A DNA stretch of 62,529 nt. Source: Synergistaceae bacterium (GTDB lineage Bacteria > Synergistota > Synergistia > Synergistales > Aminobacteriaceae). A program made the position numbers and the translations under genes. Below the pieces are notes generated by a model that did not search any database, had not been told where the DNA came from, and was given only the letters and a program-made list of their open reading frames with translations. Shown here piece after piece: positions 3,348 to 16,967 of this stretch (position 1 is its first letter; each line of letters starts with the position of its first letter). The stretch spans positions 1-62,529 of the forward strand of contig JAFSWW010000086.1 in assembly GCA_017444345.1 (NCBI GenBank), read 5' to 3'.

Positions 3348-4343
3348 TTATTTTTTGCCGATTATAACTCTAAAAATTTTTTTAGCAACTCTGTAGGCAG
3401 CATAAAACGGAAAAGCAGCGTAAATAAAGCATGGAATATTTTTCAGATGATAGCAAGGATTGAGATGTGCCTCATTTATGATTGAACGATGAGACTTAAC
3501 GCGGGCTCTTAATTCCCAATACAGTACAAACAAGTATTTATAATAATGCTTTTTCCCGAAATAATGTTCAAGCATTCTATAAATTTCACTTCGCCAGAGT
3601 ATATGATCTGCTTCGAGTTCAAATTTAGGCAATCTTGCCATGCGTGCGCTATATGAATCCCCCTCGTCTCTAATAAATCTATATGTTGTAAATATTTGGC
3701 TGAAATAGTGAACTCTTCCTAAATGAACCAGAATCGCAATAAGCTGCTGATCACCTACATTCCCCCTCAGAGACACATAAAAATTTATTTCGTCAGATGT
3801 CATAAACCGCCAAAAATTTCTATGAACACATGTTGCTAATTGATGTCTGACTCCCATTATATAATTTCTGGGATAATCCCCTTCATTATACATTATGTGC
3901 TTTATTTCTTCGTTTAATCTATTTATCGTTTTCCAATTGCTATAAACGCCTATGCAGTCAGGGTTATTTTCGAGATAATCGACTTGAATCTGCAATTTAT
4001 TCTCGTCAATCCAATAATCATCGCATTCACAATAAGCTATATATTTGCCGGTGAAATATTGAATCATGTTCTGAAAAAATGTTTTGCCGTGAAGTATGCA
4101 GTTACTTTCTTCAATAATTGCCGTGATATTTGGATTCTCTGACGCATAACGCCGTATTATTTCAGCACTTGAGTCCGGTGAAGCATCATCATGAATCAGA
4201 ATATTTACAGGAAAATTTGTTTTCTGCATTAAGACGCTTTTAATGGCCTGATCGATATATTTTTCATGATTGTAGCAGAGCATATAAACTGTTACTGAAG
4301 GCGGGCGTTTATCTCGTTCTATAATTTCAGGAAGCGTAATCAT
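3348..4343 (-). CDS. Family 2 glycosyltransferase
   Basis: A 331-residue GT-A fold transferase. The N-terminal nucleotide-sugar domain starts with SVTVYMLCYNHEKYIDQAIKS; HDDASPDSSAEII and the metal-binding region CECDDYW (about residue 109) are typical of family 2. The C-terminal 150 residues are basic and aromatic, without an obvious membrane domain. It probably adds one sugar to a surface glycan, with unknown donor. It is first in a minus-strand run with the DegT aminotransferase. A good CAGGAGG site precedes the ATG. A six-copy GCAA repeat lies about 85 bases upstream of the start. Confidence 0.85.
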   Translation of the reverse strand: MITLPEIIERDKRPPSVTVYMLCYNHEKYIDQAIKSVLMQKTNFPVNILIHDDASPDSSAEIIRRYASENPNITAIIEESNCILHGKTFFQNMIQYFTGKYIAYCECDDYWIDENKLQIQVDYLENNPDCIGVYSNWKTINRLNEEIKHIMYNEGDYPRNYIMGVRHQLATCVHRNFWRFMTSDEINFYVSLRGNVGDQQLIAILVHLGRVHYFSQIFTTYRFIRDEGDSYSARMARLPKFELEADHILWRSEIYRMLEHYFGKKHYYKYLFVLYWELRARVKSHRSIINEAHLNPCYHLKNIPCFIYAAFPFYAAYRVAKKIFRVIIGKK

Positions 4344-4425: not shown

Positions 4426-4450
4426 GCAAGCAAGCAAGCAAGCAAGCAAG
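4426..4450. repeat. Tetranucleotide repeat (GCAA)6
   Basis: Six perfect copies of GCAA plus one G in the 269-base divergent space between the glycosyltransferase (minus) and the symporter (plus). Such tracts change length by slippage; here that would alter promoter or leader spacing rather than a reading frame. I see no longer open frame through it that joins either gene. The rest of this intergenic space is AT-rich with no recognised feature. Confidence 0.85.
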
Positions 4451-6174: not shown

Positions 6175-7254
6175 CTAATCTTCCGGCTTTTCTGCTGGAG
6201 TCTCGGTTTGAGTCGGCTCACTAACAGGGGCGGGATTATTTTTTGCTGCTACTTCTTCGAGACTTTTTTCTAGTACACTTCCGAGTCCGTTCGTAGCGTT
6301 GTCGATTCTCCGATAAAGATCTCTAACTCCCTGCAAAGCAAGTACATCGCTGAAAAATGAATTAGGATACTCTATTATAGTCATGCCGCCTGCTTTGAGT
6401 TTCTCTTTATTGACTTTGTCGATCTGCTCGAGTCTCGGGCGCATTTCCTGTAACGCGTCTGCAACTGCCTTATTTAATACTGCTTTATGCTCGGGCTTGA
6501 GTGCCTGATAAATTTTATCGTTTATGCAAATTTGATTACAGTATAAAATATGATTCGTGCAGGCTAAATATTTCTGTACTTCCTCGAAATGTGCCGACGC
6601 GCAAGTATCAGCCGCATTTTCTTGAGCCTGAATAGTTCCATTTTGAAGCGAGATATATACTTCAGCCCATGCAAGGGGAGTCGGTTCTGCTCCGATTGCC
6701 GTCCAGAAAGTCATATGATTCGCGTTCTCCATTGTACGAATCTGAAGTCCCCTAAAATCTGTAAGAGTCTGCAAATCCCTATTTGAAGTCGTGAGTCTGT
6801 ACGTTGCATTTTGCATGAATCCTAATAAATGCAAACCGGCTTTCTCGTATGCTTTAGAAATTTGCTTGTGAAATTCAGAGTCCCCGTTCAAAACTTTATC
6901 AATCGTATCGCCGTCATATCTAGCGAATACCATAGGCAAATCAAACACGGCCATTTCGGGAATAAATGACACTATAGGAGCCGTCTGACACACTGTGATT
7001 GCGATATAACCCTTTTGAGCCTGACGCAGTAAATCAGCATCTCCTCCGAGCTCGCCGTTTGGGAAGTAGTCAATTACTAAGCCGGAATTTGCTGCTTTTA
7101 CTTTGTCGCGAATTAATTCAGCAAAAACGTTACCAGCCGCGCCCTTCGCCGTAGTATCTGAAGTAATCAGCCATGTCTCATCAAATTCTGACGCAGCAAA
7201 GGCACAAGAACTCATTATAAATATTAATGCTGTCAGGGCAATAAATTTTTTCAT
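6175..7254 (-). CDS. dctP: TRAP transporter substrate-binding protein DctP
   Basis: A 359-residue periplasmic binding protein with a signal peptide (MKKFIALTALIF... cleaved near SCAFA-AS). The DctP fold is recognisable from PNGELGGDADLLRQAQKG, FRGLQIRTMENANH and LQNGTIQAQENA; in characterised members the conserved arginine of the RTM region binds the substrate carboxylate. This supports an organic acid as ligand. The last 25 residues are a Pro/Glu/Thr-rich tail not usual in the family. It is the last gene of the six-gene operon, 21 bases after DctM, with a GGGAG site 9 bases before the ATG. Confidence 0.93.
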   Translation of the reverse strand: MKKFIALTALIFIMSSCAFAASEFDETWLITSDTTAKGAAGNVFAELIRDKVKAANSGLVIDYFPNGELGGDADLLRQAQKGYIAITVCQTAPIVSFIPEMAVFDLPMVFARYDGDTIDKVLNGDSEFHKQISKAYEKAGLHLLGFMQNATYRLTTSNRDLQTLTDFRGLQIRTMENANHMTFWTAIGAEPTPLAWAEVYISLQNGTIQAQENAADTCASAHFEEVQKYLACTNHILYCNQICINDKIYQALKPEHKAVLNKAVADALQEMRPRLEQIDKVNKEKLKAGGMTIIEYPNSFFSDVLALQGVRDLYRRIDNATNGLGSVLEKSLEEVAAKNNPAPVSEPTQTETPAEKPED

Positions 7255-12010: not shown

Positions 12011-12652
12011 TTATTTTCGTGCAGTATTACAAATGAAAGTTTTATAATCTAAATTTTTTACGTCAATGTAATTAATGCCTGCTGATTTAGCACAAAGCCC
12101 GTCCCTGTCATAACGATCTCCGATATATAAGACTTGATTTTCAGGGAGTCCCAGCAAGTTAATAATATTTCTTAATCCTGAAGAGTCCGGCTTCATACAT
12201 TTAATAATTTCGTCGCAGCTCCAGAATGAATAATCAGGAGTGAAATTTATCGCGCTTATTTTTTCTTTTACTGGATTATCTGAGTAAATAATTATCTTGA
12301 TTCCTGATTCTTGACAAGATTTTAAACTCGCAAGCAAACGTCTACGCCTGAAAAGTTTTATTATTCTAAGCGGCCTCATTATCATCCATAAATTTATTAT
12401 AGACTCGGCTTTATCAGGATTTAAATTATATAATCTTGAAGCTCTATCTATTTGCGAGTGATAAAAATTTTCTGTATTTGCTCCAAAGTGTTTTTCTTGA
12501 AGTCTACGGAATTCCCGCAAAAAAAATAATTCTTTGATTCTTAACGGGAATATAACATAATATATAATCAGCCATAGAGCCATTAAGATTCTCACTGGAA
12601 ATTGATAATATAGAGTTCCGTCAAAATCTGAAATTATTGCGCGATATTTCAT
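12011..12652 (-). CDS. HAD-superfamily phosphatase
   Basis: A 213-residue HAD hydrolase. Motif I is SDFDGTLY (residues 8-15), motif II is the serine of IYSDN, the motif III lysine is in CMKPDSSG and motif IV is IGDRYDRDG. The cap is small, alpha-helical and very hydrophobic near residues 20-40, suggesting membrane contact. The start overlaps the stop of the UbiA gene by four bases (ATGA), so the two are translationally coupled. A likely role is removing the 5-phosphate from the UbiA product; this is inferred from the pairing. Confidence 0.8.
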   Translation of the reverse strand: MKYRAIISDFDGTLYYQFPVRILMALWLIIYYVIFPLRIKELFFLREFRRLQEKHFGANTENFYHSQIDRASRLYNLNPDKAESIINLWMIMRPLRIIKLFRRRRLLASLKSCQESGIKIIIYSDNPVKEKISAINFTPDYSFWSCDEIIKCMKPDSSGLRNIINLLGLPENQVLYIGDRYDRDGLCAKSAGINYIDVKNLDYKTFICNTARK

Positions 12653-13653
12653 TGTAACAAGACTAATTCACGGCTCGTAAATATATTTAATACAGGAATA
12701 TTTACCAGCATTAACACTATAAATAAAGCAATCAAAGCCCCGCAGTAAAGCATGAGACCTTTTTCATGATACAATTTTTCAGGTTTCTGAACAGCTGAAT
12801 CTTTCTCAAACGATAACAGGAAATAATAACAAAATAGTCCAGTCAAAACAGGCATAAATAATATTAACTCTATTCTATATTTTACAAGAAATATTCCCGT
12901 GAAAAACACTGAGCACATCGCATAAAAAAATGAGCTGACTAATAAAGAATTGCTTGTATAATGCCTGAATGATTTTCTATAAAGGCCGGCTAATTTAGGA
13001 TCATCAATCATTCTATATTCTGCAAAACGCTTAATAGCCATTAAGAAAGCTCCACCGAACCAGTAACCGAGAATTAGACTCACGGGCGGCAATGTATAAG
13101 CAGAAATTATGAACCAGCCCGCAATTAGTCTTATAGCATTATTTATTGATTCTGACAGGACATCGAGATAAACGACATCTTTTGTTCGTAAAGGCTTGAC
13201 ATTATAAATTATTCCCATTATCCAGAGCCATATTAAACTAAATAAAAAATTTTTATTCAAGATTGACCCGATAATAAAACCTGCTATGCTTAAGACTGCC
13301 CATAAGAGCCAGACAATTTTAGCATTTATTACACCTGATACTAAGCTGCGATATTTTTTGACGGGATGATATTTATCAAATTCTGCGTCAAGATATTCAT
13401 TTATTGCGTAATTGGCCGAAGCTATGAGAGAAACTGCTATAAATCCATAAATTAATCTAGTCGTGCATTCAGAATCAAATTTTATTTTATTAATAAGTAT
13501 TGCTGCTACTGAACCGGGAACTATAAAAAATTGCTTCACCCAATGATCAAGCCGGAGAATCTTTATATATTTAAAGCATATTGTTCTTTGCTGTTCTTTG
13601 CTGTTCTTTGCTGTTCTTTGCTGTTCTTTGCTGTTCTGATCAGTCAGTATCAT
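12649..13653 (-). CDS. UbiA-family prenyltransferase, decaprenyl-phosphate phosphoribosyltransferase-like
   Basis: A 334-residue integral membrane transferase with about 8-9 helices. The first Asp-rich motif, NEYLDAEFDKYHPVKKYRS, matches the ND..D..D..HP.K..RP pattern of DPPR synthase, which joins phosphoribosyl pyrophosphate to a polyprenyl phosphate. The second motif is YLDVLSESINNAIR. The N-terminus is odd: residues about 6-24 are two copies of NSKEQQRTAK-like sequence encoded by a 10-bp tandem repeat that sits between the start codon and the conserved domain. The ATG at 13653 has a GAGGG site 8 bases upstream, and no good in-frame start follows the repeat, so repeat number controls the frame. 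Confidence 0.82.
   Translation of the reverse strand: MILTDQNSKEQQRTAKNSKEQQRTICFKYIKILRLDHWVKQFFIVPGSVAAILINKIKFDSECTTRLIYGFIAVSLIASANYAINEYLDAEFDKYHPVKKYRSLVSGVINAKIVWLLWAVLSIAGFIIGSILNKNFLFSLIWLWIMGIIYNVKPLRTKDVVYLDVLSESINNAIRLIAGWFIISAYTLPPVSLILGYWFGGAFLMAIKRFAEYRMIDDPKLAGLYRKSFRHYTSNSLLVSSFFYAMCSVFFTGIFLVKYRIELILFMPVLTGLFCYYFLLSFEKDSAVQKPEKLYHEKGLMLYCGALIALFIVLMLVNIPVLNIFTSRELVLLQ
13582..13637. repeat. 10-bp tandem repeat in the 5' end of the UbiA-type gene
   Basis: Four perfect copies of CTGTTCTTTG (13591-13630) plus nearly complete flanking partial copies, 5.6 units in all. The unit length is not a multiple of three, so adding or losing one copy changes the reading frame of the gene. 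No stop codon occurs in any frame of the repeat itself. It starts 14 bases inside the coding region. Confidence 0.92.
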
Positions 13654-13695
13654 TCAGTTCGCCCTCTTGCTTATAAAATTTATCTCATTATATCA

Positions 13696-15120
13696 TTATG
13701 AAGCTCTTAATTTATACACCATTGCTAGAATTTCAGCTACTCCCCTGTAAAGATCTTCGGGGATTTCTTCGCCGATTTCTACATTTTGATATAGTGCCCA
13801 TGCGAGCGGCTTATTTTCTATAACGGGAATTAAATTTGACTCGGCAATTTCTCGGATTCGTTTTGCTAAATAGTCCCCTCCTTTTGCTAAAACTTGAGGC
13901 GCGCCCATTAATTTACGGTCATAAACTAGAGCTACTGCAATATGAGTCGGGTTAGTGATTACAACATCAGCTTTAGGAACATCGGCCATCATTCTTTGTT
14001 TTGCCATTTCGCGCTGCTTCTGCCTGATTTTCTGCTTAACTTGAGGGTCGCCCTCCATTTGCTTGTATTCGTCTTTAATTTCTTTCTTGCTCATTCTGAT
14101 GGATTTCTCGAAGTCCCATTTTTGATAGAAATAATCAGCAAAGGCCATTACTAGCAACATTAAAGCAAGCCTCATAGCAAGTCCCCATAACATGTCCCAG
14201 AAAACAAGGCTCCCGAATAATAAAGGCATCTGCATAGCTTTTGAAGAAGTAGGCAAATAATTTCTTACTGCGCTATAAATCATCACGGCAAATATACTAG
14301 CTTTTAATAAACCTTTCAGCAATTCGACAACTGAACGCAGAGAAATAATTTTTTTCATGCCTGTGAACGGATTCAATCTATCAAATTTAGGCCCGAACGG
14401 CTCACCGGTCATAGCAAAACCGACTTGAGCAATTACAGTACACGTCGAGAATAATACAACGAGTCCGCCCAGTGGCAGCCATGACGCAAAATAATCGATC
14501 ATAGCTTCCCATGATATGAGATACAGCCAGCCGTCCTGCAATAATGCCTTGTCGCCCATGAATCTAACAGAAAAAGTAATTAATCCCGTAAGAGTCCGCC
14601 AAATCAAAGCCCCTAACATAGTCATGCCAAGTAAAGCCGTGATTATTCCTACAGCTGCATTTAAATCTTTACTCATACAGACCCGCCCCTCTTCTCGGAC
14701 TTTCTCGCGCTTTCTCGGTGTAGCTTCTTCTGTGCGTTCTTCAGCGAAAAATTGAAGATTAAATTTTTTTGTGTAAATATTTTCGTGTTTATCCCCGTTC
14801 ATAATTGAGTCGCCCGTGTAGTGTTTATTACTATATTCGTGAGAGTCGCCGCAAATATTCTCGTATTCATGTAAAAAATTTTGTTCAACTTCCCCGCCCG
14901 TAAAAGAGTAGCCGCAAATTTTCTCGTGTTTATTCCCTCCCGTGCAGCAATTATTATTATCACGAAAATTTTTACTCGTATACATGAAAGAATCGCCGCA
15001 AACTTTCTCGCATTCACTTCCGCCCGTTATTCTCCCGCAAACTCTCTCACTTAACCGCGAATAATTTTTTACACAACCGGCCGCCATAGTCTTATAACAC
15101 TTAAAGAAAACTCTATCCAT
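13696..15120 (-). CDS. flhB: Flagellar export switch protein FlhB with odd N-terminal extension
   Basis: A 474-residue open frame. The conserved FlhB part begins near residue 120 with NLQFFAEERTEEATPRKR. It has four membrane helices and the self-cleaving NPTH motif in VVITNPTHIAVAL, which sets export specificity from hook to filament proteins. FlhB is normally about 350-380 residues; the first ~115 here are extra and carry imperfect Cys/Gly repeats (EKVCGDS, EKICGYS, ENICGDS, ENIYTKK). The frame overlaps fliR by 52 bases. None of the possible starts (ATG at 15120, 14985 or 14802) has a clear Shine-Dalgarno site, so the true start may be 14802, giving 368 residues. Confidence 0.85.
   Translation of the reverse strand: MDRVFFKCYKTMAAGCVKNYSRLSERVCGRITGGSECEKVCGDSFMYTSKNFRDNNNCCTGGNKHEKICGYSFTGGEVEQNFLHEYENICGDSHEYSNKHYTGDSIMNGDKHENIYTKKFNLQFFAEERTEEATPRKREKVREEGRVCMSKDLNAAVGIITALLGMTMLGALIWRTLTGLITFSVRFMGDKALLQDGWLYLISWEAMIDYFASWLPLGGLVVLFSTCTVIAQVGFAMTGEPFGPKFDRLNPFTGMKKIISLRSVVELLKGLLKASIFAVMIYSAVRNYLPTSSKAMQMPLLFGSLVFWDMLWGLAMRLALMLLVMAFADYFYQKWDFEKSIRMSKKEIKDEYKQMEGDPQVKQKIRQKQREMAKQRMMADVPKADVVITNPTHIAVALVYDRKLMGAPQVLAKGGDYLAKRIREIAESNLIPVIENKPLAWALYQNVEIGEEIPEDLYRGVAEILAMVYKLRAS
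14773..15040. repeat. Imperfect direct repeats between fliR and the flhB core
   Basis: On the plus strand a core like CGCAAATATTCTCGTATTCA recurs at about 14850-14870, 14914-14933 and 14998-15017, with more decayed copies near 14773 and 15036. Spacing is 64-84 bases, and short GC stretches such as CCGCCCGT lie between copies. The repeats are open in two minus-strand frames: one reads as Cys/Gly repeats fused to FlhB, the other as a 72-codon frame with repeated KFAA. Whether it is translated is unclear. Confidence 0.65.
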
Positions 15121-15863
15121 TTTTCTAACTGGGTGTAAATTAAATCTATAGTCAAAGGCAATACAGCAGCAAGCACCATAAATCCCAGCATGACTTTAAC
15201 GGGCAATCCTACGACAAAAATATTCATTTGCGGAACTGTACGAGCTAGAAAGCCAAGCCCTACATCAGAGACTAATAACGAACAATAAAACGGGAGGACT
15301 ATTCGCAGACTCAATATAAACATTTCTTGAAGCCATGAACCGAACGACAAATCACCTGAAGGAAATAACGAAATTTGACCGGGGGGAACTAATTTTAAAG
15401 TCTCGATTAACGCCTGAATCATCAATAAATGACCGTTCCAGCGAAAATAAAACCATAAGGCCGCTAAAAAATTTAATTGACTCAAAATCGAAACTTGACT
15501 CATTGATGAAGGATCCATTACTTGAGCCATTGAGAAGCCCATTAGAGTCCCCGTCTGTTCTCCGGCAACCTGCAAAGCATATAACGGCAATGCTGAAATA
15601 AAGCCCAGCGCAACACCGATTAATAATTCACGAATAAATACAGCTCCGATAAATATAACGCTGTCAAAATAAATTAACGGGATCGACTCGTCTTTTATGA
15701 CTCCGACTGAACACACAGTAAGCATTACAGCAAATAAATATCTGAAAGGGGTCGGAGCCATTGCCGTCGTGAATATCGGCGAACTGAACACAAGCCCCAC
15801 GAATCTCAAGTGAAGCAGCAAATATACAGCTAATAACTGCGCAGGAAGTTCAAGACCTCTCAC
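15069..15863 (-). CDS. fliR: Flagellar export protein FliR
   Basis: A 264-residue inner-membrane protein of the flagellar type III export gate (FliPQR core). It has six or more long hydrophobic segments; VAGEQTGTLMGFSMAQVMDPSS and the end of the helix bundle match the family. Length is standard. The start overlaps the fliQ stop by four bases (ATGA), showing translational coupling. It is followed by flhB, as in many bacteria. Confidence 0.93.
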   Translation of the reverse strand: MRGLELPAQLLAVYLLLHLRFVGLVFSSPIFTTAMAPTPFRYLFAVMLTVCSVGVIKDESIPLIYFDSVIFIGAVFIRELLIGVALGFISALPLYALQVAGEQTGTLMGFSMAQVMDPSSMSQVSILSQLNFLAALWFYFRWNGHLLMIQALIETLKLVPPGQISLFPSGDLSFGSWLQEMFILSLRIVLPFYCSLLVSDVGLGFLARTVPQMNIFVVGLPVKVMLGFMVLAAVLPLTIDLIYTQLEKWIEFSLSVIRLWRPVV

Positions 15864-16135
15864 TGTATGAATCTTTCAAGCTGCCCTAGAATTTCACGAG
15901 TCATCACTAGCATTCTTTGACTGATAAAGGGCGACAATAACACTATACACAAGAATACTGCTAAAATTTTAGGAATAAATATTAAAGTCTGTTCTTGTAT
16001 TGATGTAGCTGTCTGCAAAATTCCTATTAGTAATCCCACTATCATAGCAGTCAACAAAATCGGCAGAGTTACGGCCATCATTGTCCATATTGCACCGCTC
16101 AGAATATCAAACAAGCTCAAATTTGTAACAGGCAA
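15860..16135 (-). CDS. fliQ: Flagellar export protein FliQ
   Basis: A 91-residue, two-helix membrane protein, FliQ by size, order and motif (LIGILQTATSIQEQTLIFIPK). Part of the FliPQR export gate. The start codon is TTG with an AAAGGAG site 9 bases before it. Confidence 0.92.
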   Translation of the reverse strand: MPVTNLSLFDILSGAIWTMMAVTLPILLTAMIVGLLIGILQTATSIQEQTLIFIPKILAVFLCIVLLSPFISQRMLVMTREILGQLERFIQ

Positions 16136-16157
16136 TTTCTTAACACTCCTTTATTAT

Positions 16158-16967
16158 TTACGGCACATTTGTAAAACTCTTCAAGACGCTCATAACTACG
16201 AGATTCCAGCCGTCAGCCATCACGAATAATAATATTTTAAACGGTAAAGAAATCATCATAGGCGGCAGCATCATCATGCCCATAGCTAATAAAACACTTG
16301 AGACTACCATATCAACGACTAAGAAGGGAATATAAATCACGACTCCCATTTGAAAGGCTGTCTTAAGCTCGCTCAACATAAACGCAGGAATTAATACACG
16401 GGTCGGGACTTGAGATTGATTCGCGGGGCGGGGAGTCTCTGACATTGAGACAATCAAAGATAATTCTTCCTGCCTTGTATATCTAAACATGAAATCACGC
16501 ACGGGAGTTATTGCGCGTTCCCATGCCTGCGAAGAATTTATATTCCCCGACATGTAAGGCGATATTGCATTCTGATATACATTATTCCAAGTCGGATACA
16601 TTGTAAACATAGTGAGAAATAATGCCATTCCCGCAATGACTTGCTGAGGGGGCGACTGTTGAAGACCTATAGCGCGCTGCACAAATCCTAAGACGATTAT
16701 AATTCGCGTGAAACTCGTTACCATTAATAAAATCGCAGGCACGAGGCTTAACACGGTCATTAACGCTAAAACTTGCAAAGTTAAAGCGACATCACGGGGC
16801 GAATCTGCCGGAGTTATCCCGAAATTTATAGTCGGTAAGGGAATATTAGGCGGCATTTGTTGTAATCTCGCCGGAGCAGTTGCAGCTAAAGCACTTCCCG
16901 ATAAAGCAAGAATAATAAATAATGCGAGGAAAATTTTACTGCTCACTAGATTTAAGCCAGTCTTCAT
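16158..16967 (-). CDS. fliP: Flagellar export protein FliP
   Basis: A 269-residue FliP with an N-terminal signal peptide (to about residue 29) and four further helices. Family signatures are TSFTRIIIVLGFVQRAIG, LQQSPPQQVIAGMALFLT and IPFLVVDMVVSSVLLAMGMMM. It is the central subunit of the export gate. The start lies inside the last 32 bases of fliO in another frame. Confidence 0.95.
   Translation of the reverse strand: MKTGLNLVSSKIFLALFIILALSGSALAATAPARLQQMPPNIPLPTINFGITPADSPRDVALTLQVLALMTVLSLVPAILLMVTSFTRIIIVLGFVQRAIGLQQSPPQQVIAGMALFLTMFTMYPTWNNVYQNAISPYMSGNINSSQAWERAITPVRDFMFRYTRQEELSLIVSMSETPRPANQSQVPTRVLIPAFMLSELKTAFQMGVVIYIPFLVVDMVVSSVLLAMGMMMLPPMMISLPFKILLFVMADGWNLVVMSVLKSFTNVP

Follow-up and report, generated by a model that had tools for sequence, protein, structure and literature searches.

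Phase variation by simple sequence repeats has been described for pathogens and also for some commensals (PMC11868660, PMC2651432). Three-component pentofuranose systems combine a polyprenyl phosphoribofuranose synthase (PPPRS) with a HAD phosphatase, a flippase and a GT-C transferase (Kelly et al. 2024, PMC11127046); for Citrobacter ORF15 the residues N, D, D, D, R and E were shown to be important, and phase variation is not mentioned in that paper. In M. abscessus, ubiA varies in patients under selection, by point mutation and not by repeats (PMC11980365); this case tells no more than that variation at this step can be of advantage. In a literature search, phase variation was not reported for any polyprenyl-phosphate phosphoribosyltransferase, in line with the original prediction, whose author knew of none for this enzyme class, nor for Synergistaceae; both results are weak evidence, as the search covered few subscription journals and no preprints.

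Here we describe a gene of this class from a Synergistaceae bacterium, found in a window of 62,529 nucleotides (the whole stretch of DNA analysed), which has a tandem repeat array inside its coding start. The source genome is G000, and the G-numbered genomes are from the same ruminant-gut Synergistaceae genus (n=43). The features are collected in Table 1.

Table 1. Features of the window, arrays of the orthologous genes, and array sites elsewhere in G000 and in G017
Feature	Location	Strand	Array or state	Basis
10-bp tandem array, 5.6 copies of AGAACAGCAA (coding strand); proposed frame switch	13582..13637	-		TRF and sequence
ATG and 16-nt leader ATGATACTGACTGATC	13638..13653	-		sequence comparison
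Ribosome-binding region CAAGAGGGCGAACTGA preceding the ATG	13654..13669	-		sequence
UbiA-fold polyprenyl-phosphate phosphoribosyltransferase (PPPRS/DPPR-synthase-like), 334 aa in ON frame	12649..13653	-		Pfam PF01040, motifs, PDB 8j8j
HAD phosphatase, predicted phosphoribose 5'-phosphatase	12011..12652	-		Pfam PF00702, junction sequences of five species
flhB, upstream neighbour, 42 bp before the proposed switch gene	13696..15120	-		Pfam PF01312
G000 array			10 bp x5.6, ON	
G017 array	two contigs end inside (13.7 and 11.8 copies)		G000's 10-mer, at least 13.7 copies	
G044 array			11 bp x11.3, OFF	
G024 array			7 bp x7, OFF	
G052 array			7 bp x6.3, OFF	
Arrays at 5' ends of surface-glycan genes	L051, L055, L087, L092, L095, L097, L188, L200, L228, L233, L235 (G000 contigs)			
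Module sites	L228:15028-15086, L235:1127-1190, L078:8019-8080, L211:5485-5571 and 6673-6780, L248:82-148			
Module sites, continued	L071:9903-9961, L072:3577-3628, L219:1-70, L087:18593-18650			
Contig-end arrays	L071:9933-9961, L072:3607-3628, L092:1-25, L095:9497-9518, L210:14027-14099, L219:1-30; G017 C42, C84 starts			

The Pfam UbiA domain covers residues 49-291 of the protein (E=2.8e-22), among NCBIfam models those of decaprenyl-phosphate phosphoribosyltransferases match best (the top one is PRK12324; scores are below the cut-offs), and the closest solved structure by sequence is Rv3806c / UbiA (E=1.5e-16). The protein contains the motifs NEYLDAEFDKYHPVKKYR and KRFAE, and with them the N-D-x-x-D-x-x-x-D and R-x-x-E residues of a PPPRS (NEYLDAEFD, RFAE) on a UbiA fold nearest to DPPR synthase. 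All 32 surveyed sequences share the catalytic loop NEYLDAEFD..HP.K..R and KRFAE, and all 32 have E instead of D (a conservative change) at the second motif residue. The assignment of a polyprenyl-phosphate phosphoribosyltransferase with a HAD phosphatase, made in the original prediction, is thus borne out by Pfam, NCBIfam, 8j8j and the motif survey.

The HAD phosphatase gene is also found next to the UbiA gene in G044, G024, G052 and L101. Its ATG overlaps the UbiA stop (ATGA) in G000, G024 and G052, no ribosome site of its own is evident in the junction sequences, and it is predicted to be translationally coupled to the UbiA gene. The flhB context is common to G000, G017 and G044; in G024, G052 and G004 the gene is beside a different permease-like gene. 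A flagellar role suggested by the flhB neighbourhood was rejected, because the gene sits elsewhere in G024 and G052, and a PHROGs search gave no match, hence no sign of a phage gene. The flhB ORF itself could begin 106 codons further upstream (window 14802-15120), overlapping fliR; this extension is Cys-rich and repetitive (CGDSF/HEYENICGDS motifs), and the real flhB start is likely the Met at 14802. The window has another array, GCAA x6.2 (4426-4450), between two divergent genes, 83 bp before a minus-strand gene (3348-4343) and upstream of a sodium:solute symporter; since this array is intergenic, any effect would be on transcription.

TRF reports the array before the UbiA domain as TGTTCTTTGC x5.6, with 100% identical copies. 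This confirms the 5.6-copy decamer originally noticed between a start with a ribosome site and the UbiA domain; the interval first given, 13582-13653, holds for array plus leader, whereas the array proper ends at 13637. The ATG at 13653 is the only start 5' of the array in any frame, it is directly preceded by AAGAGGGCG, and CAAGAGGGCGAACTGA-ATG offers a usable ribosome site. The array starts 16 nt past the A of this ATG, and the leader between them has the same letters in the sister species G017. Because the coding-strand unit has no T, it contains neither a stop nor an ATG, GTG or TTG start in any frame, in agreement with the original description of a non-triplet unit free of stops. Past the array the in-frame codons are ATA TGC TTT AAA TAT ATA AAG ATT CTC CGG CTT GAT CAT TGG GTG, i.e. 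there is no start in frame until the GTG within the conserved RLDHW-V-K motif, which is not preceded by a ribosome site. The upstream ATG and the body share one frame in G000 (the ON state). Arrays of at least 3 copies and 20 bp (units 4-12) were found 0 times in 10 simulated first-order Markov sequences of 1.69 Mb each with the dinucleotide make-up of G000; within G000 the tandem decamer is unique to the UbiA gene, and among the 43 genus genomes it occurs in one other, at the orthologous gene. As in known contingency loci, we find a perfect non-triplet repeat, beyond chance, inside a coding start.

We hold it highly likely that this array acts on translation as a slipped-strand contingency switch, which very probably lets single cells turn the gene on and off by losing or gaining repeats. 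Ribosomes would initiate at ATG 13653, translate 16 nt and then the array, and the enzyme body would be in frame only at 2.6, 5.6, 8.6, ... copies. If one 10-bp unit is lost or gained in replication, translation would meet a stop within ~16 nt of the array; in this OFF state the polyprenyl-phosphate phosphoribosyltransferase would be gone and the HAD phosphatase would be lowered by the lost coupling, with perhaps some residual translation from the in-domain GTG. The reverse change, or two more in the same sense, would give the ON state again. The predicted ON product is undecaprenyl-phosphate-ribofuranose, the putative donor for a GT-C (GT87-like) transferase that would add pentofuranose to a surface glycan; OFF cells would be without that side sugar. 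Five parts of this scheme we infer: that switching occurs within a population, that HAD is affected through coupling, which lipid is made, which glycan accepts the sugar, and what selects for the switch (phage or host immunity).

Among the 43 genus genomes an intact ortholog was found in five and a decayed one in G004, and the gene is absent from most. All five intact orthologs (100%) have an array at the same place at the N-terminus, with unit lengths of 10, 10, 11, 7 and 7 bp, none of which is a multiple of three. Since the genomic context differs among orthologs, the array travels with the gene and not with the place. Copy number of the decamer differs between the sister species G000 and G017, which also show a 4-bp difference directly behind the array; the latter fits a gene whose frame may drift freely and be reset by the array. 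Three of the four fully assembled orthologs are OFF: in G044, G024 and G052 the body is open (~305 codons without a stop) and its frame has no start codon (the enzyme frame of G044 runs 934 nt past the array), while a start with the upstream context lies in another frame, whose ORF stops 8-20 nt past the array. According to frame modelling, one unit more or less turns each of them ON (a 900-nt flank was used, so only the ON/OFF state is meaningful and ORF lengths are not). The comparisons of repeat counts and frame states proposed with the original prediction therefore support phase variation as the sequence-level reading of this locus. One genome per species was compared, ON and OFF alleles are known from different species, and all sequences are draft MAGs, so that the copy numbers might be compressed; another strain was sought in viral_contigs with the array flank, and no match was obtained.

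The decayed UbiA copy of G004 (L045, G004:C28, ~15787-16327) has internal deletions and no array, and its context is the same as in G024 and G052; its decay would mean that the system is lost in some species. Together with the richness of the genome in arrays and the absence of the gene from most of the genus, this copy favours another explanation, namely that the original start was lost and the OFF alleles are now pseudogenes at an early stage of decay, with arrays as by-products of a repeat-prone genome. The bodies are full-length and open in all five orthologs, however, and dN/dS is ~0.1 between G000 and G017 and 0.08-0.09 in the remaining pairs for which it could be computed (dS is saturated in most pairs). 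Most homologs outside the genus start with M-K-K/N-Y, three codons before a conserved Tyr, and no array was found in the best 78 homologs from other bacteria; none of the five array-bearing orthologs has this start, yet each of them keeps a start before the array. The arrays of the genome are, moreover, not placed at random but at the 5' ends of a particular, biased set of genes (see below), and we regard the pseudogene explanation as very unlikely. The five array-bearing orthologs form one clade (99/98 support) among 32 homologs, so that one gain followed by changes of the unit is the simplest history.

23 frame-shifting arrays with units of 5, 7 or 10 bp (mostly heptamers; simulated expectation 0) were found in G000 by a census that covered 1.69 of 2.33 Mb (73%). 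Position and Pfam matches were the basis for linking arrays to genes, and some arrays precede the gene's own start. The assignable ones lie at the 5' end, or shortly before it, of GT2, GT8, Acyl_transf_3, MBOAT, sulfatase, FrhB-type, DUF6492, radical SAM and DUF268 genes; this gene set is the usual content of surface-glycan loci. That the UbiA gene is one of a larger group of glycan genes with repeats had escaped the original prediction. A phasome of >20 loci is predicted for G000, in which L055 and the sulfatase L097 are ON and, apparently, FrhB L051 and GT2 L087 are OFF. The heptamer GAGTCAG array is found in ten genus genomes (G000 included). 12 of the 23 arrays are directly behind a TTGACA-N17..19-TATAAT-like site, as compared with ~1% of random positions, and 10 of the 13 exact TTGACA-N18-TATAAT sites in the readable genome abut a heptamer array or a 2-copy remnant. 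The module that recurs at the sites in Table 1 is [AAGGAGG]-TTGACA-N18-TATAAT set against a heptamer array; its hexamers look like a sigma-70 promoter, and a near-constant start codon in its spacer suggests a translated leader. Arrays are also strongly over-represented at contig ends (six of the 23 in G000), as would be expected if they exceed the assembler k-mer, are shared between loci or are of mixed length in the population.

These modules bear on an explanation that we consider improbable to the same degree as pseudogene decay: the UbiA array could tune leader length, mRNA structure or promoter spacing, with translation from a non-canonical codon or from the in-domain GTG past the array. 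Several heptamer arrays do abut a TTGACA-N18-TATAAT site, and some are followed by a gene that has its own start; no such promoter-like site, however, is found before the UbiA array. In none of the five orthologs is there an in-frame ATG, GTG or TTG between array and conserved body, as the original prediction had it for the source gene, and a start at the GTG would delete the conserved YIKILRLDHW stretch. Less probable again is that the array is an ordinary coding tail, i.e. a repetitive, flexible N-terminus with no switching role and neutral length differences. The unit does read through all frames as an NSKEQQRTAK-type peptide, and G000 is in frame; the OFF alleles, with their intact and selected bodies, largely refute this explanation, the peptide is wholly different between species and not needed by outside homologs, and none of the five unit lengths is divisible by three. 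That the array is an artefact of assembly in metagenome binning, conceivable for draft MAGs with arrays enriched at contig ends, can practically be dismissed, as 56 nt is well inside a short read and different projects and species (goat RGIG3196, red deer mag_106) have different units at the same place.

A slipped-strand switch, in contrast, explains the non-triplet units, the conserved position, the lost downstream start and the intact OFF alleles, as well as the purifying selection, the differing copy numbers and the membership in a repertoire. A broader proposal, to which we give an even chance, is that this rumen genus keeps a multi-locus glycan phasome made of heptamers behind the ribosome-site/TTGACA-N18-TATAAT module and of a donor-synthase frame switch kept over several speciations, with the unit exchanged (7, 10 or 11 bp).

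The product of the UbiA gene is likely polyprenyl-phosphate-ribofuranose for glycan side chains, made by a candidate three-component system as in PMC11127046, judging from family and context. A search of G000 (96% complete) for an ALO-domain (DprE1-type) protein, PF04030, gave no match, with a positive Corynebacterium control; ribose rather than arabinose is expected for this reason, and the arabinose pathway (mycobacterial arabinofuranose type) was rejected. A GT87-type multi-TM transferase follows UbiA/HAD in G024, G052 and a Selenomonadaceae relative; in G000 a GT87 gene is elsewhere in the genome (C79). GT87 and UbiA genes co-occur within the genus (4/5 vs 5/38, p=0.0046, uncorrected for relatedness), and a close homolog of the GT87-like neighbour of G044 is absent from G000 and G017. 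G052 has six GT87 genes (C80, C45, C54, C94, C34, C6), which suggests several acceptors for one lipid-linked pentose donor.

Switching of a donor synthase alters every glycan that uses the donor, unlike switching of a transferase; if our reading is true, the OFF state would remove every ribofuranose decoration together, irrespective of which transferases the cell has. In practice, annotation pipelines will label OFF alleles as N-terminally truncated, and assemblies break at array loci. The mechanism is already known; the target enzyme and the phylum appear to be new, G000 being an uncultured ruminant commensal with >20 such arrays.

Like the contingency loci of Haemophilus influenzae (LPS genes), the locus has perfect non-triplet repeats between start codon and body, ON and OFF states set by frame, a surface-glycan role for the genes and several loci per genome. 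H. influenzae has mainly tetranucleotides (PMC2651432), and the units here are 7, 10 and 11 bp; in addition, the organism is an uncultured Synergistaceae commensal, the target is a lipid-linked sugar-donor synthase, unit sequence and length vary between orthologs while position is kept, and the switching is predicted. With the systems of PMC11127046 it shares a UbiA-fold PPPRS with NxxxDxxxD and RxxE motifs, an adjacent HAD phosphatase and, in G024, G052 and Selenomonadaceae, a multi-TM GT-C-like gene further downstream as a candidate partner, but the HAD is a separate coupled gene and not fused, the transferase is GT87-like and not GT136, and the second motif residue is E and not D across the subfamily. 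Mycobacterial Rv3806c (PDB 8j8j), nearest to the window enzyme among solved structures, feeds arabinan via DprE1/DprE2, and no ALO-domain protein was found in G000. The Salmonella gtr operons are similar in that a post-polymerisation side-chain modification with a lipid-linked donor and a GT-C transferase is switched; their GtrB-type donor synthase is unrelated to UbiA, and their switch is DNA methylation (Dam/OxyR), where here it would be repeats (PMC2909390, PMC3688519).
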